From positions 1 through 35,792 of the forward strand of contig NZ_PRLH01000052.1 in the NCBI RefSeq assembly GCF_003013815.1: 35,792 bases of DNA, read 5' to 3'. A program made the translations under genes and the position numbers. How positions within the stretch are numbered: position 1 is the stretch's first letter; each line of letters begins with the position of its first letter. Below, one piece after another: positions 2,077 through 32,775 of this stretch. The stretch is from Cyanothece sp. BG0011 (GTDB taxonomy: Bacteria; Cyanobacteriota; Cyanobacteriia; Cyanobacteriales; Microcystaceae). The notes beneath the pieces were generated by a model that saw nothing but the letters and a program-made list of their open reading frames with translations, was not told where the DNA came from and made no database searches.

Positions 2077-3699
2077 CTAATCCATCGGATATTCTGGCAC
2101 TTCTATCATTTCGCTAATATCAACAGATTTACGATTATCCCCTTCACTTAACTCATAAGTCTGGTTATGAGAGTCTATCTCGTCTTTATGCGCCTCACAC
2201 CAAGGGGTTATGCTTGAGAATCTTCCCCCTACTAATTTATGGATACTGGTGGGATTAATGTACCAGCGTTGCGATCGCTCACTTGCCACATGGGAATTAT
2301 GGTGTTTAATGGCCAAGAATGCCCGTCTGATTTTTTCGGCGGTGGCATCTCGATGACGAATTCGTTTTAATTTTGATAAGGGCATTGACTGGAAATCTTT
2401 TCCTTCATGCCGGTTACGCAATCCTTCACGAAACTTAATCTCTTGCTTAACCAACTCACACACCATGGCCTTAAAATCAGTTTGACCCGTTTCTTCCATT
2501 ACGGCCCCTAACCGTTTCACCCATTCAGGGGATAATCCTAATACTTCAGGGGTTATGTCTGAATCTACAGATTCTTTGACAACTGGTTGAGATTCGTTAG
2601 ATAGAAACCTCATCAATGCTTTTTCATGGTCTGTGGTTTCTAACTTATCGGCGATCGCCTTAATGATTTTAACCCCTGGTTGTCCTAGTTTTATTCCTTG
2701 TCTTTGTCCTCCTGCTGATACGATCGCACCGTCTCCGATTTGATAATCTAGGTAGTGCATGGCCGCGTCTGCTTTCCCTGGTGTGGGTTCATGTCCATTG
2801 ATGGCTTTGATATACACGAAATCTTTGACTTGGGGAGGACAATAATAGAATACGGCGATCGCATCATACACGGCCCGTAACCTCTGAGGATTAACGGTCG
2901 TTTCCCCGTTTAAACGGGATAAAGTGGGGACAATTTCTCTAAAATTCAACTCTACTTGAAATCTCAGGTTATTTTTGTACGTTTCTAGTTCTAAATCGTT
3001 TAATTTGTCTGCTTTAAACGTATTTCTAAGGATATTATACCCTTTGAGTACGGTATCCGCTTCTATCAAAGTGGGCATCTCATAAGCTCTGTTTTTCCCT
3101 CTTGTTTTGGCTTGTCCTTGGCTTAAAATAATGGTGTAGGGGGATGAGGGTTTTAATACGGCATCTCTGAGGATTTCTCCTGGTCTTAACCCCACTAATA
3201 ACGCTAGGGATGCCCCTATATCAGCATAACTAGCATATCCTTCTTTTTCGTAAGTGGCGATCGCACTCTCTAATAATTCTCGGCCCCTGTTCACTATTAA
3301 GTCCGGTTCTTCTATGTGGGCCACATTATGCTGTTTCCAATCTAAAGCTTCTCGTTGTAACCCTAAATTAAGGGCTTTGATATCATCGGGGGTATCAATT
3401 AATGTACAGGCAAAATGTTCTCTTTTTCCCTTAGTTGGGTGGTTTATGCTATTTTTTGCGGTTAATTTGTCTTTGAAGTGGATTCTTACCGCTTTATGTA
3501 AACAAGTGTAATAATTCTTGACGCTAGTTGGTTTAACTTTCTTTAAAAACTTTTCGGTTAGTTCATTATTGAGTTGGGCGATCTCAGTTTCATCTTCCTT
3601 TGTCATCCCTTCTAAACGAGTCAGGGTGTCATCGATGATTTCTATCACCCACCCTGCCGGTGGTTTTCCTTTTCCCCATTCTTTTAACCAATGTTCCAT
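2077..3699 (-). CDS. telomere resolvase (protelomerase)-like tyrosine recombinase
   Basis: A 540-residue protein. Residues 1-150 are a helical DNA-binding part. Residues 155-320 match the catalytic fold of telomere resolvases (ResT/TelK/TelN): LALLVGLRPGEIL with R172, a beta-hairpin Lys (K198 in QAKTR), R275 in RLRAVYDAIAVFYYCPP, H303 in INGHEP, and the likely nucleophile Y316 in AAMHYLDYQIGDG. Residues 385-540 are a C-terminal DNA-binding module shared with the protein at 26570-28660. Family members cut and rejoin inverted-repeat telomeres to give hairpin ends; a plain plasmid resolvase role is the alternative. It lies 126 bases downstream of the gene at 3826-4371 on the same strand. A GGGGTG box precedes the ATG, and a GAGTATAA motif sits at 3720-3727. 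Confidence 0.72.
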   Translation of the reverse strand: MEHWLKEWGKGKPPAGWVIEIIDDTLTRLEGMTKEDETEIAQLNNELTEKFLKKVKPTSVKNYYTCLHKAVRIHFKDKLTAKNSINHPTKGKREHFACTLIDTPDDIKALNLGLQREALDWKQHNVAHIEEPDLIVNRGRELLESAIATYEKEGYASYADIGASLALLVGLRPGEILRDAVLKPSSPYTIILSQGQAKTRGKNRAYEMPTLIEADTVLKGYNILRNTFKADKLNDLELETYKNNLRFQVELNFREIVPTLSRLNGETTVNPQRLRAVYDAIAVFYYCPPQVKDFVYIKAINGHEPTPGKADAAMHYLDYQIGDGAIVSAGGQRQGIKLGQPGVKIIKAIADKLETTDHEKALMRFLSNESQPVVKESVDSDITPEVLGLSPEWVKRLGAVMEETGQTDFKAMVCELVKQEIKFREGLRNRHEGKDFQSMPLSKLKRIRHRDATAEKIRRAFLAIKHHNSHVASERSQRWYINPTSIHKLVGGRFSSITPWCEAHKDEIDSHNQTYELSEGDNRKSVDISEMIEVPEYPMD

Positions 3700-3825
3700 A
3701 CATCACCCCTGTTGTAAGGTTATACTCTCAGCTTACATTAGGGGTATTGTCTTTGTCAATAATCTATCAAAGTTTAATGAAAAAACCGAAGATTTCTGAT
3801 GTTTTACCCTTTAATTAAATTCGTT

Positions 3826-4371
3826 TTAATAAGCTTCTATTTTTTCAATGATGTTCGGATATTTTTCAAATAAAGCACGGACTTCTTTAACGTACCAAGC
3901 TTTACAATACATAGTCGATTCTCTTGTTTCATTGCTATATACTATTATTGTCGGAAACTCATAATCTACTCCACATTTTAACCCATAAGCATATTGAAAA
4001 AATACTTGTTCTTTATTTTGAATAAACTCTACCCATTCTGGAATCTCTTTTTTCATTTCTTTTAATACACTTCTATTTTCTTTACTATCTTTTTTAAAGG
4101 CTGTATATAAACGATATAATTCATCAAGTTCCCTAAAGTCATCGAAGCCAGTAATGATCACTTTATGCTCTTTATTATCTTGTGTCATTACTGTTACTAT
4201 TTGTCCCAAGCGAAAATTTCTCCCTAATATTTTCTGGGTTATCTTTGATATGATTGGATTTTTATCCCCCGTTAACTGAGACAATGTAAGTTTTAGTTGG
4301 TCTTTTTTGAGATTTTTAACCCGTAAGTGAATTGCCTCAACATCCATTTTTGATATCCTATTAACCCTCAT
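3826..4371 (-). CDS. hypothetical protein downstream of rep
   Basis: A 181-residue protein I do not recognise. It is rich in Lys, Glu and Ile, with no signal peptide, membrane segment or Cys cluster. Residues 50-80 (GRNFRLGQIVTVMTQDNKEHKVIITGF) look like a small beta-barrel, similar in style to the KOW/SH3-like barrel that ends the neighbouring Rep (KIGQWVRIKGDLLDDSLIGA). The rest is helical, with aromatic residues toward the C terminus. It starts 11 bases after the Rep stop codon on the same strand, so it is probably co-transcribed with rep. A part in replication or partition is only inferred from that position. Confidence 0.6.
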   Translation of the reverse strand: MRVNRISKMDVEAIHLRVKNLKKDQLKLTLSQLTGDKNPIISKITQKILGRNFRLGQIVTVMTQDNKEHKVIITGFDDFRELDELYRLYTAFKKDSKENRSVLKEMKKEIPEWVEFIQNKEQVFFQYAYGLKCGVDYEFPTIIVYSNETRESTMYCKAWYVKEVRALFEKYPNIIEKIEAY

Positions 4372-4382: not shown

Positions 4383-7300
4383 TTAAATAGAGGTTAAATA
4401 ATCAAGTTTCAGTGACCGTTGCCTTCCATTAATTTCTAGGATAGCGTATCGGCTCAATCCCTCCCTAAGCTCCTTGATTACGGCTTTAGCACCGATTAGG
4501 GAATCATCCAACAAGTCCCCCTTAATTCTTACCCATTGCCCTATCTTAAATGGCCAATCAACCGGTGGACTAGCTTTTTGTAGTATCTTTTCATGATCCA
4601 GATGTGGCTGATCTTCTTTAACAATTATTGGCACATCTGGATCATTACTTCTTGTTTGCTGGTCTGGATTATAGCCGTTTTTGGACTCATGAGTTTGATC
4701 GTTATTTTTTTTCTCGATTTCCGTACTACAAGATTGTTGTTGTAGTATGTTTTCGTCATCCCATCTCAGGGTTTGGAGATGTTCGGGGGAATAATCCCGT
4801 TCGATTCTGGCTTGGAGTATTTCCGTTAATTTATTGATGACCCCATGAACATAATTGTCGTGCTTGTGAGGGTCTATAATTTCTTTGAGGTTTACTTTGA
4901 CCGGCAACACCTTATATACCCGTGTTCTATTTTCATCCGAGAGACGGCGATCGCTTAAATCATAGCCAATTTGATTAAGTAAACACCGTATAAATTTAAT
5001 GGGGTCTTTTGATGGCCGCTTTCCTAGTCCCTGCCAGATTCTCTTAAGGTTGGCCCGCTTGATTAAGTCTTGTACCGGTTCACTATCGGCTGTAAATTCC
5101 CCTGCTACTTCAATGAAGTACAATAACCTTAGATCAAACAATGCTTTTAGGAATAGGTAACGGGGCTTAATTTTCCAGGGGCAAAGTTTTCCTCTTCTGA
5201 CTTTATTTAGTAGGTTATGGTAGAATTTCTTAACCTTAACTAAAGCTGGTGAATTCTCTTGGTCAAACTTTTCAAGATAGATTCTATTTTCTATTTGGGT
5301 TATTAGATTTCGATACTTATATTTAATTAGATAAATTAACTCAGGACTCCAGAAAGTAGAGTTATTTATATTAGGTAAGAGTTTAATTAGTTTGGCTTTC
5401 ATTAAGGCGCATCTATCTTCCCAATGAGCGTCTTGGCTTAACATCATCCAAGGTTTATCTAGGTACTTATCAGAAGATTCAAAGATATCTGTTGAGTCTT
5501 GAAACCTAGTTATTACCTTCTCTTTTGAAACTTCTTTATTAACTCTTTTAAATGGATCTTGATATTCAGGAGTATATCGATTACTAATGTCATATCCTTG
5601 TTGTTCTAATAACCAATAAACACACTGTCTGAGATTAGCTTTTTCATAGTTTATCATTGCTTCTAATCGTTGGGCTAACTTACTCTCAGGAGTCTCTAAG
5701 TCTTCTTTGACTTTGGTGAGTAACTCACTGATTAGTTCTTGTTTGTTATCTTCACCAACCATTGCTAAATGGAGGTCACGGGTTAACCGTTGGTTGAAAT
5801 GATATTGTAATTTTTCTAAGAAGGGTGATTTAATACTATTCTTATCATCTACTTTGGTAAAGGGATTTACCCATAAATAACGGGTCACTTGACTATCCCT
5901 AATTCTCCCAATTATTTGAGTGATTGAGTCCGCATCTAATGCCCCGTAAAATAAGCCAAAGAAGTGAGTAAAATAGTTACTAATCTTAATATCTAAGCCA
6001 CTCTCACAGGAAGGTGAAAATAAAAGTCTATCTATTTTATTTTCCCTTAAATACTTATCAGGGTCTTTTAAGAATTCTTTAACTTCTGGTTTATTGATTG
6101 TTTTTGAGTCAATTCTTAATACTTTCTGACCTAACTTATCTAAAATTCTATGTAAAGATTCTAGTAAGGTTTGATTGTCAGAGGCGATCGCTCCTGTCAT
6201 CTCAGGGATAGTTATTAAGTCATATAACCAAGGGGCATGATCCCGTTTTCTTAGTTTTGTTTTCTTGATGGTTCCTTCTAATAAAACTAAGTTAGCTTTA
6301 TTACCTTTATAGGTATTTTCTACTTTTTCTATCTTTTTGGTCGGGTCACAGGCTGCGATAAAATCGCAATACATATCTGATAGATTACCATCAAAAGATA
6401 TAATCCTATCGGCTTTTATTATGGCTCCTTTGACTAATTCTATTGCTTGTTCTCTACTATTAATGGTTGGAGAAAATAACAGATGTTTTAACACTGAAAT
6501 AATCTCATCTAGTAGTAAGACTTTCTCATCGAAGTCATTGGCATTAAAACGATAATGTGAGTTAATACAAGCTGTGACTTTTCCTTGAGGATTCCTAATA
6601 TAAAGACTACTTTCTTGTTCATGGATATGGGTAAATTCTATGTTTTTACCTGTTTCTTTTTTGGCTTGGGAGGTCTTTTCGCAAAACTGATAAAGTAGTG
6701 AGTTTCTGTATCCTAAACTTACCGCTCCATAGTTCTCTAATCCGTTTTTAAACCACTCAATTGTATTAGTGGTTTTACCTGTTCCTAACCCTGATTTACC
6801 GCATAAGATAGTGTTTTTTTCTGGTACACTTAGGTCTAGATACTCCTGTTCTACTGTTTTAGTTGGGGTAAACTGCTTACAACTTTTCCAAGCTTTAAAA
6901 GCTTTTCTATGATAAATTAATTGGTCTGATTTTTCCTTGAACTCGTCAATGGGAATTAAGCTTATTTCAAGGTTTTCGACATCAATTTCGTCAATGTCTA
7001 AACCATTTTTCTTATCCTGTAGTTGTCCCCAATCAGCTACTTTTAAATCAGGTAATATTTTTCCTAACTTTTCATAGGCGATCGCTACATTGGGGTTGAT
7101 AATTGACCCGGCATCGGCATACAGCACAAATTTGGGTTTTTCCCATCCATATCGTTGCTTAATCGAGGCGATCGCAGCTTCTATGGCCTTTGTACTACTA
7201 CCAAAGTTTCCCCCACTGGCCCCAATAATCGGTATACCTACCTTAGATGACGCTAGAAGGGGTTTATATTCTAATCCCTCACAGAACCCTATTATTTCCT

Positions 7301-8222
7301 TTTCGGGGGCTTCCTGGGGTAAATAAACGGTAATGGGGAGTTCTCCCGATGGTAGGTCGATGGGTATCCCCCTAGAGTTCTTTGAGGATAACCATAGGTA
7401 TTTCCCTAATTCGTTGGCCTGTGGGGTGAGATTGTTGATTCTGAGGCCGGTGTACAATCCATTTTCGTTCGGTACCGGAATGAGGATACCGTCGCAGGGG
7501 TTATTTAGTTTATCCCCCCGGTGGTTTACCCCTGATAATCTAATATCTACAGATTTTCTTAATGTTTGCCACTGGGTGACACTTCGATAGTTTCCTTCCT
7601 CTATTTGAGCATCCGTTAACCCCCTATTTCTGAGATACCGATAATGCTCCTCACTTAACCCCCTACTTCTGTGCGATAGCGCCGGAACGGAGTGAGGAAC
7701 TTCTGACTTCTGACTTCTGTTCGATAGAGCCGGAGCGGAGCGAGGAACTTCATGAAGGCGATCGCTTATTCCCCGTTCCCTCAATATTTGACCGTGGGTT
7801 TGAGATAGGGTTAGCTGGCCCAGTATTTCCCTGATTACCTGATCCCTCTCTGGGATAGATAACAGCTTCTCTAAACTCTCTCCCTGCTCCCTGCTCCCCT
7901 GCTCCCTGCTCCCCTGCTCCCTTGCTCCCTGCTCCCTGCTCCCTTCTCCCTTATCTTCCCCCCTGATGGCTAGAAAACGGGGATTCACCTCTGTGGGAAC
8001 TGTTAACTGTCTTTCACTGGTGACTGGTGACTGGCGACTGGTGACTGATTTAGCCCATATATTAAACCCCCATGTGTCTTGACCACGATAAACGTAGTCT
8101 ACGGGGTTGGCTTCGTTGCTTCGACAATGGACTAAATTGGTGGCGGTGTTTTGGCGGCAATCATTGCGATCGCCCTGACACACCGGACAGGGAGTGCGGC
8201 GATTGTATCTAATCCAGGTCAT
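4383..8222 (-). CDS. CyRepA1-type plasmid replication protein (copy 1)
   Basis: A 1279-residue Rep. Domains in order: a zinc ribbon (C12, C15, C22, C33 in CPVCQGDRNDC...HC); a low-complexity linker with REQGS repeats (about 95-115); a DUF3854/TOPRIM-like primase region (about 230-410, IIGFCEGLEYKPLL and FVLYADAGSI); and a superfamily helicase core with Walker A GKSGLGTGKTT (about 477-487), Walker B LLLDEI (about 569) and a motif VI-like QIIGRIRDSQ (about 770). A long helical region follows, then a C-terminal barrel (about 1230-1279). Such proteins prime and unwind at cyanobacterial plasmid origins. Relative to copy 2 it carries an in-frame insertion of about 46 residues after RGISDR. The start is ATG 8222, directly after an AGGGGG ribosome site buried in a hairpin. 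Confidence 0.85.
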   Translation of the reverse strand: MTWIRYNRRTPCPVCQGDRNDCRQNTATNLVHCRSNEANPVDYVYRGQDTWGFNIWAKSVTSRQSPVTSERQLTVPTEVNPRFLAIRGEDKGEGSREQGAREQGSREQGSREQGESLEKLLSIPERDQVIREILGQLTLSQTHGQILRERGISDRLHEVPRSAPALSNRSQKSEVPHSVPALSHRSRGLSEEHYRYLRNRGLTDAQIEEGNYRSVTQWQTLRKSVDIRLSGVNHRGDKLNNPCDGILIPVPNENGLYTGLRINNLTPQANELGKYLWLSSKNSRGIPIDLPSGELPITVYLPQEAPEKEIIGFCEGLEYKPLLASSKVGIPIIGASGGNFGSSTKAIEAAIASIKQRYGWEKPKFVLYADAGSIINPNVAIAYEKLGKILPDLKVADWGQLQDKKNGLDIDEIDVENLEISLIPIDEFKEKSDQLIYHRKAFKAWKSCKQFTPTKTVEQEYLDLSVPEKNTILCGKSGLGTGKTTNTIEWFKNGLENYGAVSLGYRNSLLYQFCEKTSQAKKETGKNIEFTHIHEQESSLYIRNPQGKVTACINSHYRFNANDFDEKVLLLDEIISVLKHLLFSPTINSREQAIELVKGAIIKADRIISFDGNLSDMYCDFIAACDPTKKIEKVENTYKGNKANLVLLEGTIKKTKLRKRDHAPWLYDLITIPEMTGAIASDNQTLLESLHRILDKLGQKVLRIDSKTINKPEVKEFLKDPDKYLRENKIDRLLFSPSCESGLDIKISNYFTHFFGLFYGALDADSITQIIGRIRDSQVTRYLWVNPFTKVDDKNSIKSPFLEKLQYHFNQRLTRDLHLAMVGEDNKQELISELLTKVKEDLETPESKLAQRLEAMINYEKANLRQCVYWLLEQQGYDISNRYTPEYQDPFKRVNKEVSKEKVITRFQDSTDIFESSDKYLDKPWMMLSQDAHWEDRCALMKAKLIKLLPNINNSTFWSPELIYLIKYKYRNLITQIENRIYLEKFDQENSPALVKVKKFYHNLLNKVRRGKLCPWKIKPRYLFLKALFDLRLLYFIEVAGEFTADSEPVQDLIKRANLKRIWQGLGKRPSKDPIKFIRCLLNQIGYDLSDRRLSDENRTRVYKVLPVKVNLKEIIDPHKHDNYVHGVINKLTEILQARIERDYSPEHLQTLRWDDENILQQQSCSTEIEKKNNDQTHESKNGYNPDQQTRSNDPDVPIIVKEDQPHLDHEKILQKASPPVDWPFKIGQWVRIKGDLLDDSLIGAKAVIKELREGLSRYAILEINGRQRSLKLDYLTSI
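7665..7751 (-). repeat. 39-bp direct repeats inserted in the rep coding region
   Basis: Two 39-bp units (7665-7703 and 7713-7751) differ at only a few positions, with a run of CTTCTGA heptads between them. They encode EVPHSVPALSHRS and EVPRSAPALSNRS in the Rep frame. The matching place in copy 2 (near 32350) lacks them completely, so they are a recent in-frame insertion. Confidence 0.75.
7881..7950 (-). repeat. heptanucleotide tandem repeats (CCCTGCT type) in rep
   Basis: Imperfect heptads of the CCCTGCT family, read in the Rep frame as repeating REQGS residues. They resemble the short tandemly repeated repetitive (STRR) sequences of cyanobacteria. The same array, with a different unit order, occupies the equivalent spot in copy 2 at 32482-32550. 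Confidence 0.75.
8017..8047. repeat. GGTGACT heptad array
   Basis: Four near-identical GGTGACT units lie in the N-terminal linker of Rep copy 1 and are read as SPVTS repeats. The same heptad builds the inverted arms at 24699-24847. Confidence 0.7.
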
Positions 8223-8650: not shown

Positions 8651-9826
8651 CAGAAATGTTGAATGTCTTTAGAAAACTTTACATATCAAATTAGACTAAC
8701 CCTATGGTGCTTAAATTTCACCTTAACCAAATCAGTTTTCTGAACCAATGTACATAGCTAATTTCCTGACACATATAAGCTTGAAGATAACGGAGTTTAT
8801 CTAATATCGTTTTTCCAAATTCTAATGGTATTTCTATTAACTGTAGAATTAAATAAGCAATTAAGCAACTATAGATTTGGATTCTAATTCCATTCTCATT
8901 CTTCGTCATTAGTCTGTCTAATTTTAAGTGCATCTTTAAAAATTTCCAAAGTAATTCTATCTGCCATCTTTGTACATAAATCTCTGCTATTTCCTCATTG
9001 CTTACTCCTTCTTCTCCATCAAAGGGTAAATTAGTTGCTAATCTAAATTCAGTCCTGTCTTCTAAGTCACAAAATGCGACTACTCTAATTTCTACTTCTC
9101 TTTCATCTTTTCCTACTTTAGAATTACCATCATCTAGCCTTTCTAAAGTAACATTATTTTTAATTCTCAAGACAAATGCTTTGTTTTGTTGTTCTTTCAA
9201 CTCCCTGATTCTTTCACAAGAAGCGAACCCTCTATCCATTATGCCTACTCCATTTTCTGGAATTGCATTTACTGTTTGATGTCCATATTTATAGTCATGT
9301 CCTTGCCCAAAATGAATAACTATTCCTCCTGTTTCTGATGTCCAGTTGTCTAATCCACAAAATAGTTTAACTTGATGATATCCTTGACTGCATAAAAGTT
9401 TACTTGTTAGACTAAGTATAGTAGAATCAATAGGAAAATAAGAACGAGCTTTTCTTTCTCCTTTTCGTTGACGAAGCTTTCTTTTTAATTGATTAATGAT
9501 GTCAAGAAAAACTTGAGTGTCTCTTTTCTTGCTTGCCTTAGAAAAATTAGATATTTTTAGGTCTATTCCTTGAGTATTTAATCTTTTAAATAAATCCTGC
9601 ATACTCACAACACTTTTATCCATTACATACTCCAACCAGCAGGAGACAAATGAAAATGTACTGAGAACCGGATAATCATTTCTAGGTAAAGGTTTTAAGA
9701 TAGTTTTAATGACTTTAGGAAAACTTTGTAAAATCAAATTATTTATTTTGCTTTTCTATGTTTTTTCTTATTCTAGCATTTTAAACGGATTTTCTCCAGG
9801 CTTTTTTCTAACATTCAACATTTCTG
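8651..9826 (-). mobile_element. IS4-family insertion sequence, copy 1 (1176 bp)
   Basis: The ends are perfect 16-bp inverted repeats, CAGAAATGTTGAATGT at 8651 and its complement ending at 9826, followed by imperfect extension. Length is 1176 bp, the same as the copy at 25128-26303, which encodes an identical transposase. No target-site duplication is visible (left flank ...CAGTTGC, right flank CCTTCAC...), and a different truncated gene lies on each side. Confidence 0.9.
8718..9737 (-). CDS. IS4-family DDE transposase (copy 1)
   Basis: A 339-residue transposase with the IS4 signature. D104 lies in FPIDSTIL, D168 in GIMDRGFA, and E261 in the YREK motif, Y254-x2-R257-x3-E261-x6-K268 (YVQRWQIELLWKFLK). 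It catalyses cut-and-paste movement of the surrounding 1176-bp element. No frameshift or stop interrupts it, and the second copy at 25195-26214 translates identically, so recent activity or recent recombination is likely. The start at 9737 leaves a normal gap of about 90 bases to the IS end. Confidence 0.92.
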   Translation of the reverse strand: MILQSFPKVIKTILKPLPRNDYPVLSTFSFVSCWLEYVMDKSVVSMQDLFKRLNTQGIDLKISNFSKASKKRDTQVFLDIINQLKRKLRQRKGERKARSYFPIDSTILSLTSKLLCSQGYHQVKLFCGLDNWTSETGGIVIHFGQGHDYKYGHQTVNAIPENGVGIMDRGFASCERIRELKEQQNKAFVLRIKNNVTLERLDDGNSKVGKDEREVEIRVVAFCDLEDRTEFRLATNLPFDGEEGVSNEEIAEIYVQRWQIELLWKFLKMHLKLDRLMTKNENGIRIQIYSCLIAYLILQLIEIPLEFGKTILDKLRYLQAYMCQEISYVHWFRKLIWLR

Positions 9827-15691: not shown

Positions 15692-15722
15692 AATACTATT
15701 ATTGTAGCACTTATCGTTGTTA

Positions 15723-16146: not shown

Positions 16147-16306
16147 TATGGTCGGTTTATTTTTTGGTCGGTAATTCCCCTCCCCCTAACATTCGTATAA
16201 GGGGAGACCCCTTACCGACATTTAAGTATGGTCGGTTTATTTTTTGGTCGGTAATTCCCCTCCCCCTAACATTCGTATAAGGGGAGACCCCTTACCGACA
16301 TTTAAG
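16147..16306. repeat. two perfect 80-bp tandem copies at the IS605 left end
   Basis: Units 16147-16226 and 16227-16306 are identical. Each contains the arms GTCGGTAA and TTACCGAC with a nested CCCCT/AGGGG stem, so each can form a long hairpin. They begin 11 bases after the tnpA stop. They are probably a duplicated left end of the IS, though iterons of another system cannot be excluded. Confidence 0.75.
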
Positions 16307-23750: not shown

Positions 23751-23975
23751 ATGCGACAAAACCAAGATTTCACGCCTATCGAGGGCTTAACGCAATGTGA
23801 TACCTGTATTAATTGCTCCATGTTCACCGATTTCCGAGATAATCGCAGTCGAGGATGGTGCAGTGCTTTTGAGAGAATAGCCAAAACGTTCCATCCCCAA
23901 ACCAACACTTGTCAACAGGCGATCGCTCCTGTCATCTCAGGGATAGTTATTAAGTCATATAACCAAGGGGCATGA
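23751..23975 (+). pseudogene. small Cys-rich protein, 3' end replaced by rep antisense
   Basis: From ATG 23751 the frame gives about 56 native-looking residues with five Cys (CDTCINC, WC, TC) in the pattern QCDTCINCSMFTDFRDNRSR. This suggests a small metal-binding protein. At 23918 the sequence becomes a copy of the CyRepA1 gene in antisense, and the frame then stops at 23975. The last 18 codons are therefore foreign, and the original 3' end is lost. The switch lies exactly at GGCGATCGC. The function is unknown; it may still be expressed from the promoter at 23651-23680. Confidence 0.62.
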
Positions 23976-25127
23976 TCCCGTTTTCTTAGTTTTGTTTTCT
24001 TGATGGTTCCTTCTAATAAAACTAAGTTAGCTTTATTACCTTTATAGGTATTTTCTACTTTTTCTATCTTTTTGGTCGGGTCACAGGCTGCGATAAAATC
24101 GCAATACATATCTGATAGATTACCATCAAAACAAATAATTCTATCGGCTTTTTTAATGGCTTCTTTGACTAAGTCTATTGCTTGTTCCCGATTATTAATA
24201 GTTCGAGAAAATAACAGATGTTTTAAGACTGAAATGATTTCGTCTAGTAGTAAGACTTTCTCATCAAAGTCATTGGCATTAAAACGGTAATGGGAGTTAA
24301 TACAAGCGGTGACTTTTCCTTGAGGATTCCTAATATAAAGACTACTTTCTTGTTCATGGATATGAGTAAATTCTATGTTTTTTTGGGTTTCTTTTTTGGC
24401 TTTGGCAGTCTTCTCACAAAACTGATAAAGTAGAGAGTTTCTGTATCCTAAACTTACCGCGCCATAGTTCTCTAATCCGTTTTTAAACCACTCAATTGTA
24501 TTAGTGGTTTTACCTGTTCCTAACCCTGATTTACCGCATAAGATAGTGTTTTTTTCTGGTACTCTTAGGTCTAAATACTCCTGCTCTACTGTTTGGGTTG
24601 GGGTAAATACTTTACAACTTTTCCAGGCTTTAAAGGCTTTTTGATGGTAAACTAGTTGGTCTGATTTTTCCTTGAACTCGTCAATTGGAATCAGATTTAC
24701 AGTCACCAATGAACAGTCACCAGTCACCAGTGTTGTTCTTTCGTTTTTTCCCTTAGCTGTTATACAAAGATTACTAACTTCTGATTGATTATTAGTAACT
24801 GAAAATTGTTTATTACTGGTGACTGGTGACTGGTGACTGATGACTGTTTTAATTTCGTCAATGTCTAATCCAGTTTCTTTGTCATTGAGTTGTCCCCAAT
24901 CAGCTACTTTTAGGTTGGGTAGAATCTTTCCTAGTTTTTCGTATGCGATCGCTACATTGGGGTTGATGATAGAACCAGCATCGGCATACAGAATGAACTC
25001 AACTTCATCCCATTGGTATTGTTGTTTTATTGACGCGATCGCCTCTTCTATGGCCTTTGTACTACTGCCAAAGTTTCCCCCACTGGCCCCTATAATCGGA
25101 ATCCCCACATTAGATGATGCTAGAAGG
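23917..25127 (-). pseudogene. internal fragment of a third CyRepA1 rep gene
   Basis: An uninterrupted reading frame closely matches Rep copy 1 from the primase region (GIPIIGASGGNFGSSTKAIE) through Walker A (GKSGLGTGKTT) and Walker B (LLLDEI) to TIPEMTGAIA, or roughly copy 1 positions 6182-7256. It is cut at the 5' side by IS4 copy 2 at 25127 and at the 3' side by the HIP1 junction at 23918. Zinc finger, C-terminal half and leader are all missing, so it cannot be functional. It carries an extra in-frame segment of about 50 codons (see 24699-24847). Confidence 0.85.
24699..24847. repeat. MITE-like insertion with inverted GGTGACT arms
   Basis: The left arm 24699-24732 (CAGTCACC heptads) and right arm 24815-24847 (GGTGACTG heptads) are inverted copies around 82 bases of unique sequence. 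Copy 1 of rep lacks this insertion at the matching place (near 6960-6985). The element is in frame and adds about 50 residues with SPVTS-type repeats. It encodes nothing of its own. Confidence 0.7.
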
Positions 25128-26303
25128 CAGAAATGTTGAATGTCTTTAGAAAACTTTACATATCAAATTAGACTAACCCTATGGTGCTTAAATTTCACCT
25201 TAACCAAATCAGTTTTCTGAACCAATGTACATAGCTAATTTCCTGACACATATAAGCTTGAAGATAACGGAGTTTATCTAATATCGTTTTTCCAAATTCT
25301 AATGGTATTTCTATTAACTGTAGAATTAAATAAGCAATTAAGCAACTATAGATTTGGATTCTAATTCCATTCTCATTCTTCGTCATTAGTCTGTCTAATT
25401 TTAAGTGCATCTTTAAAAATTTCCAAAGTAATTCTATCTGCCATCTTTGTACATAAATCTCTGCTATTTCCTCATTGCTTACTCCTTCTTCTCCATCAAA
25501 GGGTAAATTAGTTGCTAATCTAAATTCAGTCCTGTCTTCTAAGTCACAAAATGCGACTACTCTAATTTCTACTTCTCTTTCATCTTTTCCTACTTTAGAA
25601 TTACCATCATCTAGCCTTTCTAAAGTAACATTATTTTTAATTCTCAAGACAAATGCTTTGTTTTGTTGTTCTTTCAACTCCCTGATTCTTTCACAAGAAG
25701 CGAACCCTCTATCCATTATGCCTACTCCATTTTCTGGAATTGCATTTACTGTTTGATGTCCATATTTATAGTCATGTCCTTGCCCAAAATGAATAACTAT
25801 TCCTCCTGTTTCTGATGTCCAGTTGTCTAATCCACAAAATAGTTTAACTTGATGATATCCTTGACTGCATAAAAGTTTACTTGTTAGACTAAGTATAGTA
25901 GAATCAATAGGAAAATAAGAACGAGCTTTTCTTTCTCCTTTTCGTTGACGAAGCTTTCTTTTTAATTGATTAATGATGTCAAGAAAAACTTGAGTGTCTC
26001 TTTTCTTGCTTGCCTTAGAAAAATTAGATATTTTTAGGTCTATTCCTTGAGTATTTAATCTTTTAAATAAATCCTGCATACTCACAACACTTTTATCCAT
26101 TACATACTCCAACCAGCAGGAGACAAATGAAAATGTACTGAGAACCGGATAATCATTTCTAGGTAAAGGTTTTAAGATAGTTTTAATGACTTTAGGAAAA
26201 CTTTGTAAAATCAAATTATTTATTTTGCTTTTCTATGTTTTTTCTTATTCTAGCATTTTAAACGGATTTTCTCCAGGCTTTTTTCTAACATTCAACATTT
26301 CTG
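25128..26303 (-). mobile_element. IS4-family insertion sequence, copy 2 (1176 bp)
   Basis: Same length, same 16-bp inverted repeats and same orientation as 8651-9826. The left flank is an interrupted CyRepA1 fragment (...GCTAGAAGG) and the right flank an unrelated HepT-like gene (GAAGAAAGC...). There is no target duplication, so one side was lost or exchanged. With copy 1 it brackets 17.6 kb in direct orientation. Confidence 0.9.
25195..26214 (-). CDS. IS4-family DDE transposase (copy 2)
   Basis: 339 residues, identical in translation to the transposase at 8718-9737, with D104, D168, E261 and the full YREK motif. The absence of any difference points to recent transposition or gene conversion between the two copies. 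Because both copies lie in the same orientation, homologous recombination between them would delete or release the 17.6-kb segment as a circle. Confidence 0.92.
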   Translation of the reverse strand: MILQSFPKVIKTILKPLPRNDYPVLSTFSFVSCWLEYVMDKSVVSMQDLFKRLNTQGIDLKISNFSKASKKRDTQVFLDIINQLKRKLRQRKGERKARSYFPIDSTILSLTSKLLCSQGYHQVKLFCGLDNWTSETGGIVIHFGQGHDYKYGHQTVNAIPENGVGIMDRGFASCERIRELKEQQNKAFVLRIKNNVTLERLDDGNSKVGKDEREVEIRVVAFCDLEDRTEFRLATNLPFDGEEGVSNEEIAEIYVQRWQIELLWKFLKMHLKLDRLMTKNENGIRIQIYSCLIAYLILQLIEIPLEFGKTILDKLRYLQAYMCQEISYVHWFRKLIWLR

Positions 26304-26569: not shown

Positions 26570-28660
26570 ATGTCTAATTATGATAGTATCGTTCATTTTT
26601 GCCAGCGAGAATCAGAGATTGATTTAACAGAAGCGATCGCACAAGCGAGAACGGAATGGTTAAAAAACTGGTTATTAGAGCATTTACCGAAAATAGCTGA
26701 ATTAGAGGATACCCCCGAAGACCACGAATTTGCCCGACAATGGGATGCTATGGCGAAGGAGATGATGGCCGATCGCGGTTTGGTTACACCTTCACAGCAA
26801 AAGAACCGCCTCACTGATATCCGTAATGCCCTGAAAACCCTTAATCCTAACCATCCTGCTTTAGCTGATGTGGGGTTTACCTCCCAAGAGTGGGAGGCCA
26901 TTAACCGTTCTTCTGAACAACGAGTTAGCGATCGCAATACTAAATTTTTATCTGACCCTGATGCTATTGTAGAGAAGGCCATCGCTTTACTCGATAGCAA
27001 TGATTGGTCTGACTTGGCCGCTGGTTTGGCTGTTTTGACTGGTCGCCGTTGTGCTGAAATTTTACAGACTGCGGAGTTTGAATATAAATCTCATTATTCG
27101 GTTACTTTTAGTGGATCTCTGAAACGTCGCAGTGAACCGGTTAACCTACAGTTTGAAATTCCGACTTTGGCCTCGGCATCAGTAGTCATTGACGCTTTAG
27201 CTAAACTGAGGGAATGGGTTGATACCAAAGGGTTAGATAACCGGGCCATTAATAATAAATATGCCCATGCTGTCATTAACTCAAGCGATCGCCATTTCCG
27301 TGAGTTAGTCCCCACCCGTGATGGAGAAGATAATCTTTATACTCATTTATTCCGGGCTGTTTATGCTACCATCGCCACTCATTGGTATTGTCCCCCTAAT
27401 GTCCCTGAGTTAGAGTTCAGAGCTTATATTCAAGGTCATTTTAAAATCCTCGATGAGAATAACCCTGAGTTAAGAAGGAGTTTAGCGGCCTCTCGTAATT
27501 ATTTTGATTATAAGATTGCTGATGGTCAAGGGAATGTCGATGGCCGGTTAGGGATTAAGTTAGCGTTCCCCAATGTCACTGTGGTTGAGGCTTTTGAAAG
27601 TTATTATCAACCCCCAATAAGAGATGATGATAACCATGATGAAGCTGTACCGAATAATTCTCAACCCATACCCGAACCCGAACCCCTCACAGATGAAGAG
27701 TTAGTTAAAGCGTTAGTGAGTATGCTTGATAGTTCTGATGATGAAGTGTTATTGACTGGGTTAATGGGGGTTACGGGCCGTACTCCTGGTGAACTGCTTA
27801 AGTCCGGGGTTTTTCGGTTATCTCCTGATGGGATGGTTTTGTTTTCTCCTACTGGTTTAACTCAATCTTCTCCCCTTCCTACTTTGGTTGAGGGGCCTAA
27901 AGTGATTGACGCGATCGCTTGTCTTCGTCACCACCCTGATGTTCAATCAGAGTTATATCTTAGTCCCAATCAAATTAATGACCATTGCCATGCCAAAGTT
28001 GAACCGGTCATTACTCAATCCCTTGGTTTGAAGGATATCAAAGAACTTTACGCTAACTATACTCACCTTTGTTCTCTTCAAGAAATCTCAGTTACATCCG
28101 AACCATCAATGGCAACCGAACTTGATTGGGCTGATGTCGCAAAGTCTTTAGCACAATCTCTTAATCTTGATTCTCCTACTCAATTACAAGATTGGTTTGA
28201 CCAGCTTCCATTTGATTCTACTCCCCATACTCATACTTATACTCATACTCAAGATGAGTCTGATGAACTTAAAAGAATGTTCTCGTCTCAACAACAATCA
28301 TTGAATCATTTAACTGATGCTATCTCGAATCTTGTGGTTACTCTCAAGGGAGAAGAGACAACCACCACGCAAGAAAACACCAATCATACCCTAAATCCAG
28401 GGAAGCAAAAAGTTAATCGTGCCATTGATGCCATTATCGATTACAACAATAATCAGGCTACTAAAACAAAGGATAAATGGCGGATTACTATTTCGGCACT
28501 TAAACAGTTAACTAAATGTAATCAAGGTTTAATTGCTAGAGTTATTGAAAAACGTCAAACTGAAATTGAACAACATCATCAAACCCATCAATTGGGACAA
28601 TATCATAATTCTAAAGGTAAAATGGCTCCTTCTATTTCTGATGTTATCTCTTCTATTTAA
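26570..28660 (+). CDS. telomere resolvase-like recombinase with an internal half-duplication
   Basis: 696 residues. Residues 125-345 are the catalytic fold: LAVLTGRRCAEIL (R169/R170), K185 in SGSLKRRSE, R262 in LFRAVYATIATHWYCPP, H290 in AYIQGH, and the likely nucleophile Y311 in RNYFDYKIADG. Residues 375-505 repeat the first half of this fold (GLMGVTGRTPGELL with R404, then PTLVEGPKVIDAIACLR) but lack the later catalytic residues. Residues 612-696 match the C-terminal DNA-binding module of the 2077-3699 protein (RAIDAIIDYNN, KWRITISALKQL). Family members resolve replicated telomeres into hairpins; here the degenerate repeat may aid DNA binding or dimer contact. The next gene starts ten bases after its stop. 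Confidence 0.72.
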   Translation: MSNYDSIVHFCQRESEIDLTEAIAQARTEWLKNWLLEHLPKIAELEDTPEDHEFARQWDAMAKEMMADRGLVTPSQQKNRLTDIRNALKTLNPNHPALADVGFTSQEWEAINRSSEQRVSDRNTKFLSDPDAIVEKAIALLDSNDWSDLAAGLAVLTGRRCAEILQTAEFEYKSHYSVTFSGSLKRRSEPVNLQFEIPTLASASVVIDALAKLREWVDTKGLDNRAINNKYAHAVINSSDRHFRELVPTRDGEDNLYTHLFRAVYATIATHWYCPPNVPELEFRAYIQGHFKILDENNPELRRSLAASRNYFDYKIADGQGNVDGRLGIKLAFPNVTVVEAFESYYQPPIRDDDNHDEAVPNNSQPIPEPEPLTDEELVKALVSMLDSSDDEVLLTGLMGVTGRTPGELLKSGVFRLSPDGMVLFSPTGLTQSSPLPTLVEGPKVIDAIACLRHHPDVQSELYLSPNQINDHCHAKVEPVITQSLGLKDIKELYANYTHLCSLQEISVTSEPSMATELDWADVAKSLAQSLNLDSPTQLQDWFDQLPFDSTPHTHTYTHTQDESDELKRMFSSQQQSLNHLTDAISNLVVTLKGEETTTTQENTNHTLNPGKQKVNRAIDAIIDYNNNQATKTKDKWRITISALKQLTKCNQGLIARVIEKRQTEIEQHHQTHQLGQYHNSKGKMAPSISDVISSI

Positions 28661-28669: not shown

Positions 28670-28930
28670 ATGAATAACTCCAACCAATTTGAACTACCGT
28701 CAAGTCAAGAACGAGATTATTCGATTCTCCTCAGAGTCATGGGAGAACTATCTGACGATCCTGTAGATTTAGTCGATAAACTAATTTCATTAGTTAACAC
28801 CGAAACAAGAGATTGGAAAAATCCCGACATCAACACTTATTGCCAAAAGAACAGCTTTGACTCTTCTGACCACAAACAACTCAAAATCATCTTACAACAA
28901 GAGTTAAGAAAAGAAGGTTACGATGTTTAA
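28670..28930 (+). CDS. small protein copying one CyRepA1 domain
   Basis: 86 residues. DPVDLVDKLISLVNTETRDW, then NTYCQKNSF and LQQELRKEGYDV, align with residues about 800-860 of Rep copy 2 (DPVEYIEKLLEMVDCEKRQW, ITAYCNF, FTQELIDEGHEV). The region lies just after the helicase core in Rep. The free-standing domain follows the resolvase gene after ten bases, so it is in its operon, and it overlaps the Rep stop codon tail-to-tail. Possible roles are Rep inhibitor by mixed oligomers, or an adaptor between resolvase and Rep; neither is shown. It could also be a leftover of another rep gene, but it has its own start and stop. Confidence 0.65.
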   Translation: MNNSNQFELPSSQERDYSILLRVMGELSDDPVDLVDKLISLVNTETRDWKNPDINTYCQKNSFDSSDHKQLKIILQQELRKEGYDV

Positions 28931-31900
28931 ATTGCCATTAATCCCTCTACATAATCGATCGCATCATCGGGCATCCTCTCAAATAACCAGTTTAAAAGTT
29001 GATGACTACCCCATCCTAACTTATGACTTAACTGGGTTATCTTGGCCTTGGCCAGTTCTAGCCCCTCAAAACTTTCGGCTGCTAATAACCACCAATACGC
29101 AGTATGGACTGTTAACTCAAAGTCAGGTGAGTAGCGATCACTTGAATAAGGCCACCAGAATGGTTTTAAGTCTTCTGTCACATTCGTTTCCTCTTGGTTA
29201 TTAGTCTTACGAGTTCGAGCAAGTTCTGTGACACCTCCTAGACTCTGTGGGGACTGGCTTTGACCCTCCTCATTTTCTAATTGGTCTTGGGGGTTTCCTA
29301 CCTGAACCACGTTCTCTGTTCCGAGGCTAAAACCTGTTCGGTAATCAGTCTCAGTTCTCCCGTTATTTTCTACTGTCACAGAAGTCTCTTGCTGGTTAAT
29401 TGTATACGAGTTTTCGGGAAGTTCTGTGACACCTTCTAAGCCATATCTGGTGACTGTTTGACCCCATTTGAGATCGAAGGCGTTTAAGATGGCGTTCCGA
29501 TCAGAATTGTTCAGTTTTTCGGGGTCAAGTTTATAGGTTCTTACTCGTTCCCCATTGACCCGTTTTTGTTCACAGATGAATCCTAAACCGATTTTATCTA
29601 GGAACCGGTTCAGCAAATGAATGGCCTTAGATTTTTTGGTGACGATGATGTCGAATAACTGGTACAAGCGATTTCTTCTCCGTAAGCATTTTTGCTTAAA
29701 CTCTTCTAACCAAGAATCATCCTGGGTGTATTCCTTATCTGGGTTAGCTAAAACTTCGAGTATTCCCAGGTCTAATAATTCTTTGACTAGGGGGTAGTAA
29801 GCCCTAATGTCCGGGAGGTACACTATCGAATGAGTAGCGAATTGCCTAAACTTATGGCTGTATTCTTTCTCATCGTAATATTGGGCCGCGTCGGGGTTTA
29901 ATAACTTCCAGTACAACTTAATGGCATTTAGCGATCGCCTTCTATCCCTGACCACGTTCTTTTCTATGAACTCTGGGGTTAACTCGACTCCGGGTATTTC
30001 TTCACCGATAAATGCTTTGGTTGCTTGATGCCGTTCAGTGGCCGTGGCTGTTGCTTTTCTCATTATGGACTGGGCCGCCTCTAAGGTTATATCCCCAGAA
30101 TTGGCGATCGCACTCGCTGTTTCCCTATGAATGGCCTTACCCTGTTCCGTTTCCCCTTCCATGAACTCCTTAGTTTGTAATAAAACTTCACATCCATTAG
30201 TGTTAATTTTTATTACTTCATGGCCTTCGTCTATTAATTCCTGGGTGAAGATTTCTCTGAGGTTAGCTAAGCCAAAATTATCACGGGCTTTGAAGTTACA
30301 ATAAGCAGTAATATGAACGTTAGACCATTGCCTTTTTTCGCAGTCTACCATTTCTAATAATTTTTCAATATATTCTACAGGATCGTCAAGTTTTACTAAT
30401 TGTTGAACATCTAATAAACTTAACCCTTCTTTATGGTATTCGTGAAGGGACTTGTTAATCTCAACAGGGTCAAAACTTCGATTACCTCTTATCATCCCTG
30501 CGGTTCTAATATAAATATATCTGGGTACGTTTGCTCTATATCTCATCAATGCTTGACGACATTGGGAGGGAGTCAAGACGCCGACAAATATTCCAAATAC
30601 TTTATCAAACCAGTGTTTTACTTCATGGTCTATTTTACCATTAATTTTCCCATCGATGCTGGTTCCCGTACTCATTGATGGGGTATAAATTAGGATATCG
30701 GGTCGTTCTTTTTTGATGGATTCATTGACCCTTTCAACATAATCTTTCCCCCATTGATCTTCTACTGTTTTACTGTCTATTCTGTTAATGATTTTATCAG
30801 GAAATCGTTTATGTAATTCCCTTTCCATTTTTTCAGCTTCTGCTTGAGAATCAGTGGCTATGATGATTTTTTGACCGGCTTCAATAGCGTTAAGGGCTTC
30901 TTGTTTAATCCATTTCTTTTGGTTTAAAATATAAGCTTTATAACTCAAAGGCTTTTCATGGTTGACTATAGTAAAGACTGAGGTATTTGTCGGAGCCAAT
31001 GACCTAATGTAATCGATACTCACATCGGTTAAGTCGGCATCCGATAGTAAAACTAATCCTTTATAGGATAAAACTTCATTGATAATCTTTTGAAAAGATT
31101 TTAAGAGTAATGACCGTTTTTCTTTACAGGTTGATGAGGCTAATAAATGGGTTAATCCTAGTTCTGCTTCATCTAAGAAAATGGCTGTTTTCTCTAAGTT
31201 TCTATGGTATAATTTCCAAATAGAATCAAAACATAATCCTAATGTGGCTTGGTTTTCATAGATGGTTAATCGGTTGACTTGTTTACACAAGGGATCATCA
31301 GTATCTATTTGCCATTCGATACCCCATGCTTGTGCCTGTCCCCTTCCTAAAACAATCCTAGGAACAATGGAAATGATTTTGTATCCTTCTGTTCTCAATT
31401 GTTTGATTAGGTTCTCATTGAGGTGACTTTTACCACTTCCTTTGGCACTTTTTAGGTTAATTATCCCCTGTTTGGGCATCAGTTCTATTAGTAAGTCACT
31501 GGGTAAGTATTTACCATCAATTAAGTCTTTTTGGGTTAGCTGTATGTCTGGAGCATAAGTCAAGCTTCTTAAGTCTTTTTGGATTTTCTTGATTCTAGGA
31601 TCTAGCTTTTTCTTCTGATAGCTTTTAGCTTTTTTAAGAAACTGCTTAATCGTAATTAACTTAACATTTCCTTCTCCTTGAAGGCTGAATCTGAACGATT
31701 TAGCTAGTTTGATTTTCTCAATGGTTTGATCGTCTAATTCATCAATGTCTAAACCAGTTTCTTTATCGGTTAATTGTCCCCAATCCACTACTTTTAGGTT
31801 AGGTACAATCTTGCCTAGTTTTTCATAGGCGATCGCTACGTTTGGGTTGATAATTGACCCGGCATCGGCGTACAGCACAAACTTGGGTTTTTCCCATCCA

Positions 31901-32775
31901 TATCGTTGCTTAATTGATGCGATCGCAGCTTCTATGGCCTTTGTACTACTGCCAAAGTTCCCCCCACTGGCCCCAATAATCGGAATCCCCACGTTAGATG
32001 ATGCTAGAAGGGGTTTATATTCTAATCCCTCACAGAACCCTATTATTTCCTTTTCGGGGGCTTCCTGGGGTAAATAAGTGGCAATGGGTAGTTCTCCCGA
32101 TGGTAGGTCGATGGGTATCCCCCTAGAGTTCTTTGAGGATAACCATAGGTATTTCCCTAATTCGTTGGCCTGTGGGGTGAGATTGTTGATTCTGAGGCCG
32201 GTGTACAATCCATTTTCGTCTGGTACCGGAATGAGGATACCGTCGCAGGGATTATTTAGTTTGTCCCCCCGGTGGTTTACCCCTGATAATCTGATATCTA
32301 CAGGTTTTCTTAATCTTTGCCACTTGGTAATACTTCGGTAGTTCCCCTCAGTTATTTGGCGATCGCTTATCCCCCGTTCCCTCAATATTTGACCGTGGGT
32401 TTGAGATAGGGTTAGCTGGCCCAGTATTTCCCTGATTACCTGATCCCTCTCTGGGATAGATAACAGCTTCTCTAAACTCTCTCCCTGCTCCCTGCTCCTC
32501 CGCTCCCTGCTCCCCTGCTCCCTTCTCCCTGCTCCCTGCTTCCCTTGCTCTTTTAACCATTCCTGGCGGCGTTCATCAGCCCATTTCTCAGCATCGGGCT
32601 TGTAAGCCCACAGATTGAATCCCCACGGGTCTTGGCCCCGATACAGGTAATCTAAGGGGTTGGCTTCACTGCTTCGACAGTAAACTAGGTTTGTGCTGGT
32701 GTTTTGTCGGCAATCACGGCGTTCTCCATTACACACCGGACAGGGAGTCTGACGGTTATATCTAAGCCAGATCAT
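28927..32775 (-). CDS. CyRepA1-type plasmid replication protein (copy 2)
   Basis: 1282 residues. The N-terminal 330 or so are nearly the same as copy 1: zinc ribbon CPVCNGERRDC, REQGS linker, then DUF3854/TOPRIM with GFCEGLEYKPLL and FVLYADAGSI. After about residue 340 the helicase is different: Walker A LKSAKGSGKSHL (about 445), IVPRIVLGRGQA, Walker B AIFLDEAELG (about 533), and motif VI-like SQCRQALMRYRAN (about 738). The C-terminal half (wHTH-like segments and a long linker) is also unlike copy 1. Copy 2 thus shares only its primase half with copy 1. The start is ATG 32775, after an AGGGGG sequestered in a hairpin. It appears complete and is probably the active initiator of this block. Confidence 0.85.
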   Translation of the reverse strand: MIWLRYNRQTPCPVCNGERRDCRQNTSTNLVYCRSSEANPLDYLYRGQDPWGFNLWAYKPDAEKWADERRQEWLKEQGKQGAGRREQGSRERRSREQGESLEKLLSIPERDQVIREILGQLTLSQTHGQILRERGISDRQITEGNYRSITKWQRLRKPVDIRLSGVNHRGDKLNNPCDGILIPVPDENGLYTGLRINNLTPQANELGKYLWLSSKNSRGIPIDLPSGELPIATYLPQEAPEKEIIGFCEGLEYKPLLASSNVGIPIIGASGGNFGSSTKAIEAAIASIKQRYGWEKPKFVLYADAGSIINPNVAIAYEKLGKIVPNLKVVDWGQLTDKETGLDIDELDDQTIEKIKLAKSFRFSLQGEGNVKLITIKQFLKKAKSYQKKKLDPRIKKIQKDLRSLTYAPDIQLTQKDLIDGKYLPSDLLIELMPKQGIINLKSAKGSGKSHLNENLIKQLRTEGYKIISIVPRIVLGRGQAQAWGIEWQIDTDDPLCKQVNRLTIYENQATLGLCFDSIWKLYHRNLEKTAIFLDEAELGLTHLLASSTCKEKRSLLLKSFQKIINEVLSYKGLVLLSDADLTDVSIDYIRSLAPTNTSVFTIVNHEKPLSYKAYILNQKKWIKQEALNAIEAGQKIIIATDSQAEAEKMERELHKRFPDKIINRIDSKTVEDQWGKDYVERVNESIKKERPDILIYTPSMSTGTSIDGKINGKIDHEVKHWFDKVFGIFVGVLTPSQCRQALMRYRANVPRYIYIRTAGMIRGNRSFDPVEINKSLHEYHKEGLSLLDVQQLVKLDDPVEYIEKLLEMVDCEKRQWSNVHITAYCNFKARDNFGLANLREIFTQELIDEGHEVIKINTNGCEVLLQTKEFMEGETEQGKAIHRETASAIANSGDITLEAAQSIMRKATATATERHQATKAFIGEEIPGVELTPEFIEKNVVRDRRRSLNAIKLYWKLLNPDAAQYYDEKEYSHKFRQFATHSIVYLPDIRAYYPLVKELLDLGILEVLANPDKEYTQDDSWLEEFKQKCLRRRNRLYQLFDIIVTKKSKAIHLLNRFLDKIGLGFICEQKRVNGERVRTYKLDPEKLNNSDRNAILNAFDLKWGQTVTRYGLEGVTELPENSYTINQQETSVTVENNGRTETDYRTGFSLGTENVVQVGNPQDQLENEEGQSQSPQSLGGVTELARTRKTNNQEETNVTEDLKPFWWPYSSDRYSPDFELTVHTAYWWLLAAESFEGLELAKAKITQLSHKLGWGSHQLLNWLFERMPDDAIDYVEGLMAI
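32482..32550 (-). repeat. heptanucleotide tandem repeats (CCCTGCT type) in rep copy 2
   Basis: Heptads of the same family as 7881-7950, again in frame and read as RREQGS-like residues. The unit order and number differ between the two rep genes although the flanking DNA is nearly identical, so the array evolves faster than its surroundings. Confidence 0.72.

Follow-up and report, generated by a model that had tools for sequence, protein, structure and literature searches.

Paired CyRepA1 replication proteins and telomere-resolvase-family recombinases in Cyanothece sp. BG0011 suggest a linear, hairpin-ended replicon

Telomere resolvases have been described from Agrobacterium (TelA), the phages phiKO2 and N15 (TelK and TelN) and Borrelia (ResT). 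Cyanobacteria are mentioned once among the bacteria with hairpin telomeres in the relevant passage of PMC3558466, which gives no reference for them. Reports of linear cyanobacterial replicons go back to Cyanothece 51142 (cited in PMC4674748 and PMC5987646), and the passages citing it do not state the enzyme that makes the ends. For plasmids pNPM8, pNPM9 and pNPM10 of Nostoc N6, with the end motif AAATTAACRGAC, covalently closed hairpins were inferred in 2018 from palindromic reads and coverage (PMC5987646); the enzyme is unnamed in the main text of that paper, in which the word stems telomer and resolvase do not occur. Plasmid pSYSA of Synechocystis has a CyRepA1-family replication protein (Rep) and a regulatory RNA region before rep (PMC9978351, PMC10899382). 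The window analysed here was one entire contig of Cyanothece sp. BG0011 (NZ_PRLH01000052.1, C162; 35,792 bases) from a draft genome of 5,597,925 bases in 227 contigs. It shares the Rep family and a presumably regulatory RNA region before rep with pSYSA. It also carries two telomere-resolvase-family recombinases, TelL and TelR; the main text of PMC10899382 has none of the word stems linear, telomer and recombinase. The window probably holds the replication and telomere modules of a linear, hairpin-ended extrachromosomal replicon, or of fused replicons. The linear replicon family that a first-pass annotation had suggested is supported by the family and fold of the enzymes, by the ends of related replicons and by the match of Tel genes with published linear topology. 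The features of the two blocks, whose open reading frame (ORF) positions were confirmed in the sequence, were as follows.

2077 to 3699, minus strand: TelL, telomere-resolvase-family tyrosine recombinase, 540 amino acids (aa); PF16684, 88.9 bits, E 4e-25
4383 to 8222, minus strand: RepL, CyRepA1-family plasmid replication protein, 1279 aa; NF042913, 475 bits
8223 to 8520, minus strand: structured leader of RepL; fold z -3.12, 0 of 200 shuffles as good
26570 to 28660, plus strand: TelR, telomere-resolvase-family tyrosine recombinase, 696 aa; PF16684, 152.8 bits, E 9.8e-45
27695 to 28069, plus strand: second, incomplete and degenerate PF16684 half-domain inside TelR; profile positions 8-138, E 1.6e-7
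28927 to 32775, minus strand: RepR, CyRepA1-family plasmid replication protein, 1282 aa; NF042913, 338 bits
32776 to 33073, minus strand: structured leader of RepR, homologous to the RepL leader; fold z -2.87, 3 of 200 shuffles as good

TelL and TelR both exceeded the curated cut-off of PF16684 (ResT/TelK/TelA, Pfam; 27 bits). Alignment with TelA gave the catalytic set R172, K198, R275, H303 and Y316 in TelL and R160, K185, R262, H290 and Y311 in TelR, and the R-K-R-H-Y layout was complete in both; the GRRxxEI-like box, also predicted by the first-pass annotation, was exact in TelR (GRRCAEI) and read GLRPGEI in TelL. The second arginine (R262/R275) and the tyrosine (Y311/Y316) were invariant in all 28 aligned sequences, the window pair included. 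Catalytic residues were mapped onto TelA R255 and Y405 by counting along the printed alignments, Y405 being the position that we take to be the catalytic tyrosine. TelA R255 is named in the part of PMC3558466 used here.

TelA was the only NCBIfam family below E 1e-3 for TelL and TelR, under its strict cut-off. Searches of PDB sequences returned TelA for TelL (E 8.5e-7), and TelA, TelK and, at E 0.008, ResT for TelR. The AlphaFold2 model of TelL had a mean predicted local distance difference test score (pLDDT) of 80.7, and its best Foldseek match was TelA (7.5e-11). The TelR model had a mean pLDDT of 73.5; residues 21-350 were mostly at 80-98 in blocks, with dips to 73-75 (111-120 and 181-190) and to 50-57 (291-310, just before the tyrosine), and a poor middle region followed residue 350. 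All Foldseek matches in the PDB at E<=0.001 were telomere resolvases (TelR 8 of 8, each TelA, TelK or ResT; TelL 7 of 7), and Cre and lambda integrase began only near 1e-2. No Phage_integrase or Xer family matched TelR or TelL up to E 1 in Pfam, NCBIfam or PHROGs. Profiles, PDB sequences and predicted folds thus sided with ResT/TelK/TelA, and an identity as XerC/D or phage integrase was rejected.

By sequence and predicted fold, TelL and TelR are members of the telomere resolvase family and are presumably active. They share the catalytic domain, the R-K-R-H-Y residues and the fold core with TelA, TelK, TelN and ResT; they differ in their low identity (about 20% in structural alignments) and in an extra C-terminal region, which in TelR includes the second half-domain. 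A TelR relative in genome G027 likewise had a second PF16684 half-domain. The protelomerases of phages N15, VHML and phiHAP-1 are homologous to Tel, and PMC5987646 suggests in one passage that the linear plasmids of Nostoc N6 may be phage remnants, so that the contig could be part of an N15-type phage-plasmid. However, capsid, tail and terminase proteins were absent among 15 window proteins searched with Pfam, six of them also with PHROGs, in an incomplete replicon whose smaller ORFs were left unscanned. Phage matches covered at most 23% of TelR, and a scan of viral contigs confirmed no relative and gave no further telomeres; an N15-type element is highly improbable.

RepL and RepR scored well above the NF042913 (CyRepA1) cut-off of 200 bits, and each block thus has the CyRepA1-type Rep described earlier. 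They would be the proteins that start replication of this replicon. The 298 nt 5' of each Rep were folded against 200 shuffles; both leaders folded better than shuffles, as listed above, and the possible stems CCAGAAG/CTTCTGG, GATGGA/TCCATC and CCCCC/GGGGG were conserved in the two copies, which bears out the hairpin leaders of the first-pass annotation. In the final possible hairpin, CCCCC would pair with GGGGG, which includes a G-rich, likely ribosome-binding stretch directly before each ATG, and this suggests that the leader hairpin controls Rep translation.

The ends of related replicons were then compared. A tblastn search with TelR matched 45 plasmid records, of which 29 bear cyanobacterial names; 12 of these 29, together with NZ_CP091924 from the TelL search, were examined whole or in part (6 of the 13 deposited as linear, 7 as circular). 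Among the close counterparts were plasmids 2 and 3 of Chondrocystis sp. NIES-4102 (AP018283 and AP018284), which have end palindromes, a CyRepA1 Rep and relatives of TelR (53% identity in aligned pieces with the AP018283 Tel; 57% over residues 18-344 with the AP018284 Tel). Unlike the window, they were deposited as complete linear records and have one Tel place each (tblastn). AP018283 had a 189-bp palindrome at both ends, followed by an identical terminal inverted repeat (TIR), 8,629 bp in all. Among records deposited as circular, AP018215 started and ended with palindromes of 98 and 146 bp, and AP018305 was joined end to end at a 1,491-bp TIR. Plasmid pNPM10 had a TIR of about 1.06 kb, and both its ends began with AAATTAACGGAC. 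In genome G078, both ends of contig G078:C53 (22,857 bp) had a 106-bp palindrome with a TIR of about 780 bp, and both ends of G078:C59 (18,151 bp) had a 38-bp palindrome with a TIR of about 920 bp. The tip GTCCGTTAATTT joined to AAATTAACGGAC, which marks a Nostoc-type group, was common to G078:C53 and AP018215, and pNPM10 ended exactly at the half of this tip. A terminal palindrome of at least 16 bp occurred at 4 of 4 ends of the two Tel contigs of G078 and at 0 of its 24 other contig ends. Such end palindromes and TIRs would be expected where assemblies read round a hairpin, and the published hairpins of pNPM8-10, as presented in PMC5987646, independently support this reading. The long inverted-repeat ends sought for this family were thus present on replicons of relatives (AP018283, AP018215, pNPM10 and the G078 contigs among them).

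A profile scan of genome contigs gave at least 80 matched stretches, of which at least 39 loci were confirmed, two in Chloroflexota (L155 and L163; Thermosporothrix hazakensis and Dictyobacter arantiisoli). Among the loci listed, a terminal palindrome of at least 16 bp was found in 3 of 29 with a contig end in reach 5' of tel (L143, L148 and L158; Chroococcus FPU101, 45 bp; Microcoleus FACHB-1515, 53 bp; Leptolyngbya FACHB-8, 23 bp) and in 0 of 21 at contig ends 3' of tel. In contigs longer than 9 kb, a tel match lay within 1.2 kb of the end 11 times on the 5' side versus once on the 3' side (binomial p 0.006); both limits were set with the data already in view, and a few of the 11 genes are truncated at the contig end. 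In G027, 25 of 4,000 internal positions started a palindrome of at least 20 bp with small mismatches allowed, and the 23-bp tip is therefore weak evidence alone. Several other ends were not counted as telomeres: AP018286, G127:C6 and pLBY had inverted end repeats and no clean tip; G278:C104 began with a 29-bp palindrome and had none at its other end; pANACY.06 (NC_019775), NZ_CP091924 and AP025026 had scrambled or imperfect inverted repeats only. The 98,395-bp Elainella saxicola contig LUGL01000231.1 (L159, L160), also not counted, carried tel at both ends in inverted orientation and had no clean tip. In a Nostoc-type group (L052, L053, L054, L056, L075 and L077), tel was split into a short catalytic ORF and a separate ORF, which also matched TelR and TelL.

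Published topologies of two Nostoc genomes were compared with the TelR hits. The accounts of their plasmids list three linear and seven circular for Nostoc N6 (PMC5987646) and two linear and ten circular for Nostoc ATCC 53789 (PMC7118181). The TelR tblastn hits included 5 of the 5 plasmids published there as linear, pNPM8, pNPM9 and pNPM10 among them, versus 0 of the 17 circular ones. Presence in the searched collection was confirmed for 7 of the 17 circular plasmids (pNPM1, 2, 3, 5, 6, 7 and pNsp_a); on this confirmed set, Tel was found on 5 of 5 linear versus 0 of 7 circular plasmids as published (chance 1/792). Like the window, pNPM10 combines a gene of the PF16684 type with a CyRepA1 Rep (204.6 bits), in addition to its TIRs; unlike TelR, its Tel lies on another branch, with the even tip AATTT-AAATT.

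The pairing of Tel with CyRepA1, which the first-pass annotation had proposed to survey, recurred on other cyanobacterial replicons. The sample comprised 386 cyanobacterial genomes, among them that of the window. PF16684 was found at E<=0.001 in 15 of them (above the cut-off in 14), and CyRepA1 above its cut-off in at least 96, a lower bound with three candidates scored per genome. CyRepA1 was above the cut-off in 9 of 15 Tel genomes versus 87 of 371 others (Fisher p 0.003), and in 8 of 14 Tel genomes without the window's genome (p 0.008). Tel and CyRepA1 lay on the same contig in 5 of 17 Tel-bearing contigs (the window, G072:C29, G078:C53, G078:C59 and G127:C6) versus about 0.4 expected by contig number; this expectation is rough, as contig counts were rounded and contig size was left out of account. 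Besides the four contigs other than the window, CyRepA1 was above the cut-off on AP018283, AP018284, pNPM10, AP018305 and AP018215, and it was annotated on the Tel-bearing NC_019775. Seven Tel-bearing cyanobacterial replicons with TIRs, mostly with end palindromes, also carry CyRepA1. In the NCBIfam test of Rep candidates from Tel replicons, 6 of 8 passed (AP025026 was below at 186.7, and AP018286 had no match); the eight were picked as large Rep-like ORFs and do not give a rate, and a pLBY candidate was left out for its length. No CyRepA1-telomere resolvase link appeared among the open-access papers listed; subscription papers were outside this scope, and earlier reports there are possible.

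Six clean tips were obtained from relatives of TelR, and all were odd palindromes centred on TC-A/T-GA, with arms that differed beyond the centre:

AP018283 and AP018284: tip TATC-A-GATA
G027: tip TTATC-A-GATAA
L143 and L148: tip GTTC-T-GAAC
L158: tip TATTC-A-GAATA, the short one of 23 bp

The chance of a shared centre was about 1e-6, (1/16)^5, a rough value that treats the tips as independent. In a phylogenetic tree of 49 rows, the six odd-tip Tels and TelR fell in a 27-row group (support 100/99), apart from the Nostoc-type telomeres. That tree omitted G280, the closest relative of TelL; in a 32-row tree that included it, TelL joined G280 (100/100), and the full-length Nostoc-type rows stood apart. 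The short, long-branched rows of G078:C59 and ANACY06 fell among the TelR relatives with support of 46, so the border of the TelR group is unsure in this tree. Because the clean tips of its relatives have this centre, the expected substrate of TelR is an odd palindrome with TC-A/T-GA in the middle. Such a predicted TC-W-GA site differs from the 6-base palindromic overhang of TelA given in the part of PMC3558466 used here.

The 4,681,111 bp of genome G027 form a single contig. A perfect palindrome lay at 2,113,189 (C1:2110111-2116269; L080, L081); its arms of 3,079 bp flank a single central base, and each arm contained a 902-aa tel frame. The longest perfect arm elsewhere in G027 was 18 bp in 41 sampled windows. 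GC skew, taken in 45 windows of 20 kb, changed most strongly about 40 kb from the palindrome, between the windows with midpoints at 2.06 and 2.08 Mb; the means on either side of the palindrome were +0.013 and -0.004 (Mann-Whitney p 0.009, permutation p 0.033). This skew was weak, and it ran the opposite way in the two windows closest to the palindrome on each side, four in all. Seven of the ten proteins flanking the palindrome had a family match at E<=1e-20 and three had none; with ArgZ and a KaiC protein above cut-offs, and malic-enzyme-like and cytochrome-bd-like proteins below them, these matches make the flanks look chromosomal. CyRepA1 was not found in G027 at E<=1e-20. A circular molecule does not easily keep so large a perfect palindrome, and an apparently linear chromosome wrongly closed into a circle is therefore the likelier reading of G027. 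We lean slightly towards the wider view that linear hairpin replicons sustained by PF16684 enzymes are widespread in cyanobacteria, often coupled to CyRepA1 and including the main chromosome of G027, with a TelR type on odd TC-W-GA sites.

Several observations weigh against linearity or against parts of this wider view. Both ends of the window were without a palindrome, and a search of the host genome for the telomere pattern of the Chondrocystis type yielded one imperfect match only, at C179. The host genome also had 32 TATC-N-GATA sites (WWTATCNGATAWW), and none of the 15 inspected extended beyond 6 paired bases a side. AP018284 had a 93-bp palindrome at one end only, and NC_014534, deposited as linear, had none at either end. 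Five Tel-bearing records (AP017309 and NC_011738, both examined only in part, AP025026, NZ_CP091924 and NC_019775) were deposited as circular and had no clean tip; inverted repeats flanked the junction of NC_019775. The TelL branch contained no relative with a known telomere. Only 5 of the 17 Tel-bearing contigs carry CyRepA1, and the circular pNPM5, without a Tel hit, carries it; the pairing is therefore frequent but not obligatory.

In the window itself, the Chondrocystis-type pattern with up to 3 mismatches had 0 matches, and its half-sites were at chance level (10 versus 12.9 expected). Among 33 ends of 20 host contigs, 6 were all N and 0 of the 27 others were palindromic. The telomere-type inverted repeats foreseen for this replicon were thus found on the replicons of relatives and were missing from the window and the searched parts of the host genome. 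The ends of the window are ordinary assembly breaks, not telomeres, because its right end runs into an array of clustered regularly interspaced short palindromic repeats (CRISPR; 35007-35754, Rfam CRISPR-DR5, 9 repeats above threshold). The start of host contig C54 had the same CRISPR repeat. The left end (L047:1-50) of NC_014534.1, the Gloeothece verrucosa linear plasmid Cy782202, resembled a vector polylinker by inspection, and this deposited end may be a library artefact.

The five circular deposits and the lack of a telomere in the window would also fit a circular molecule on which Tel serves as a dimer resolvase or persists as a relic. However, circular labels proved unreliable: AP018215 and AP018305 were deposited as circular yet joined through perfect palindromes or TIRs, and pNPM9 (NZ_CP026691, L236) is labelled circular in the collection and was published as linear with hairpins, as given in PMC5987646. 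In addition, TelL and TelR both have complete active sites and open frames. A circular molecule is quite improbable.

The left block lies entirely on the minus strand, in the order structured leader, RepL, a 181-aa ORF and TelL; in the right block, the leader and RepR (minus) are convergent with TelR (plus). The stretch between the blocks encodes a DNA methylase, a PIN protein and a P4-type primase; it also contains insertion sequence (IS) elements and two broken genes, a third Rep that is truncated and a third Tel of which the tail is left. The further features were as follows.

3826 to 4371, minus strand: 181-aa ORF between RepL and TelL; DUF5839 only, below cut-off
16411 to 16485, minus strand: C-terminal remnant of a TelL-type recombinase, by sequence comparison with the TelL end
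19458 to 22589, minus strand: P4-type primase-helicase, another replication protein; DUF3854, D5_N, DUF5906
23912 to 25108, minus strand: truncated third CyRepA1 Rep, 398 aa, interrupted by an IS; NF042913, 174 bits

The third recombinase remnant noticed earlier proved real, its sequence NRKSVEISEMVTMPKCPWNK matching the TelL C-terminus NRKSVDISEMIEVPEYPMD. The truncated third Rep shared 94% DNA identity with RepL across 784 bp. The IS region at 8651-9826 was repeated at 25128-26303 with 100% identity over 1,176 bp, and its second copy adjoined the broken Rep; both copies were DDE_Tnp_1. IS200/IS605 genes were also present, with a pair at 14426-16136. An 80-bp tandem duplication lay at 16147-16310, beside this pair and the Tel remnant. 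Relatives of the P4-type primase-helicase were found on the Tel-bearing linear records AP018284 and NC_014534.

The broken third Rep and Tel, the two identical IS stretches and the IS200/IS605 genes could mean that the contig is chromosomal or a dead mosaic, in which remnants of linear plasmids were captured through IS elements and recombination and replicon function was lost. Against this, two full, intact sets of Rep and Tel with conserved leaders remain, and we regard such a mosaic as unlikely. Two complete Rep-Tel pairs from different branches and a broken third rather suggest that such plasmids were duplicated and fused and that IS elements broke one of the copies.

If the replicon is linear with hairpin ends, each CyRepA1 Rep would initiate replication at an internal origin and in both directions, while the hairpin leader probably restrains its translation. 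Forks would pass round the ends, which are covalently closed, and so produce an inverted dimer whose halves meet at palindromic telomere junctions. Each junction would be cut by a Tel dimer via its tyrosine (Y311 in TelR, Y316 in TelL) and its strands refolded into two hairpins, separating the daughters.

The enzyme class is known; the link with CyRepA1, the odd telomere type and the chromosome candidate appear to be new. The matched enzyme, replication protein and predicted telomere sites are directly testable, and linear cyanobacterial vectors are conceivable. If the prediction is true, TelR would form, together with its relatives, a type of resolvase for odd-symmetric TC-W-GA sites, hence with a stagger of 5 or 7 nt and not 6, and such sites would broaden knowledge of how telomere resolvases cut and refold DNA. 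The findings are also a warning that several cyanobacterial plasmids deposited as circular, and perhaps one chromosome, are linear molecules whose telomere palindromes were joined.

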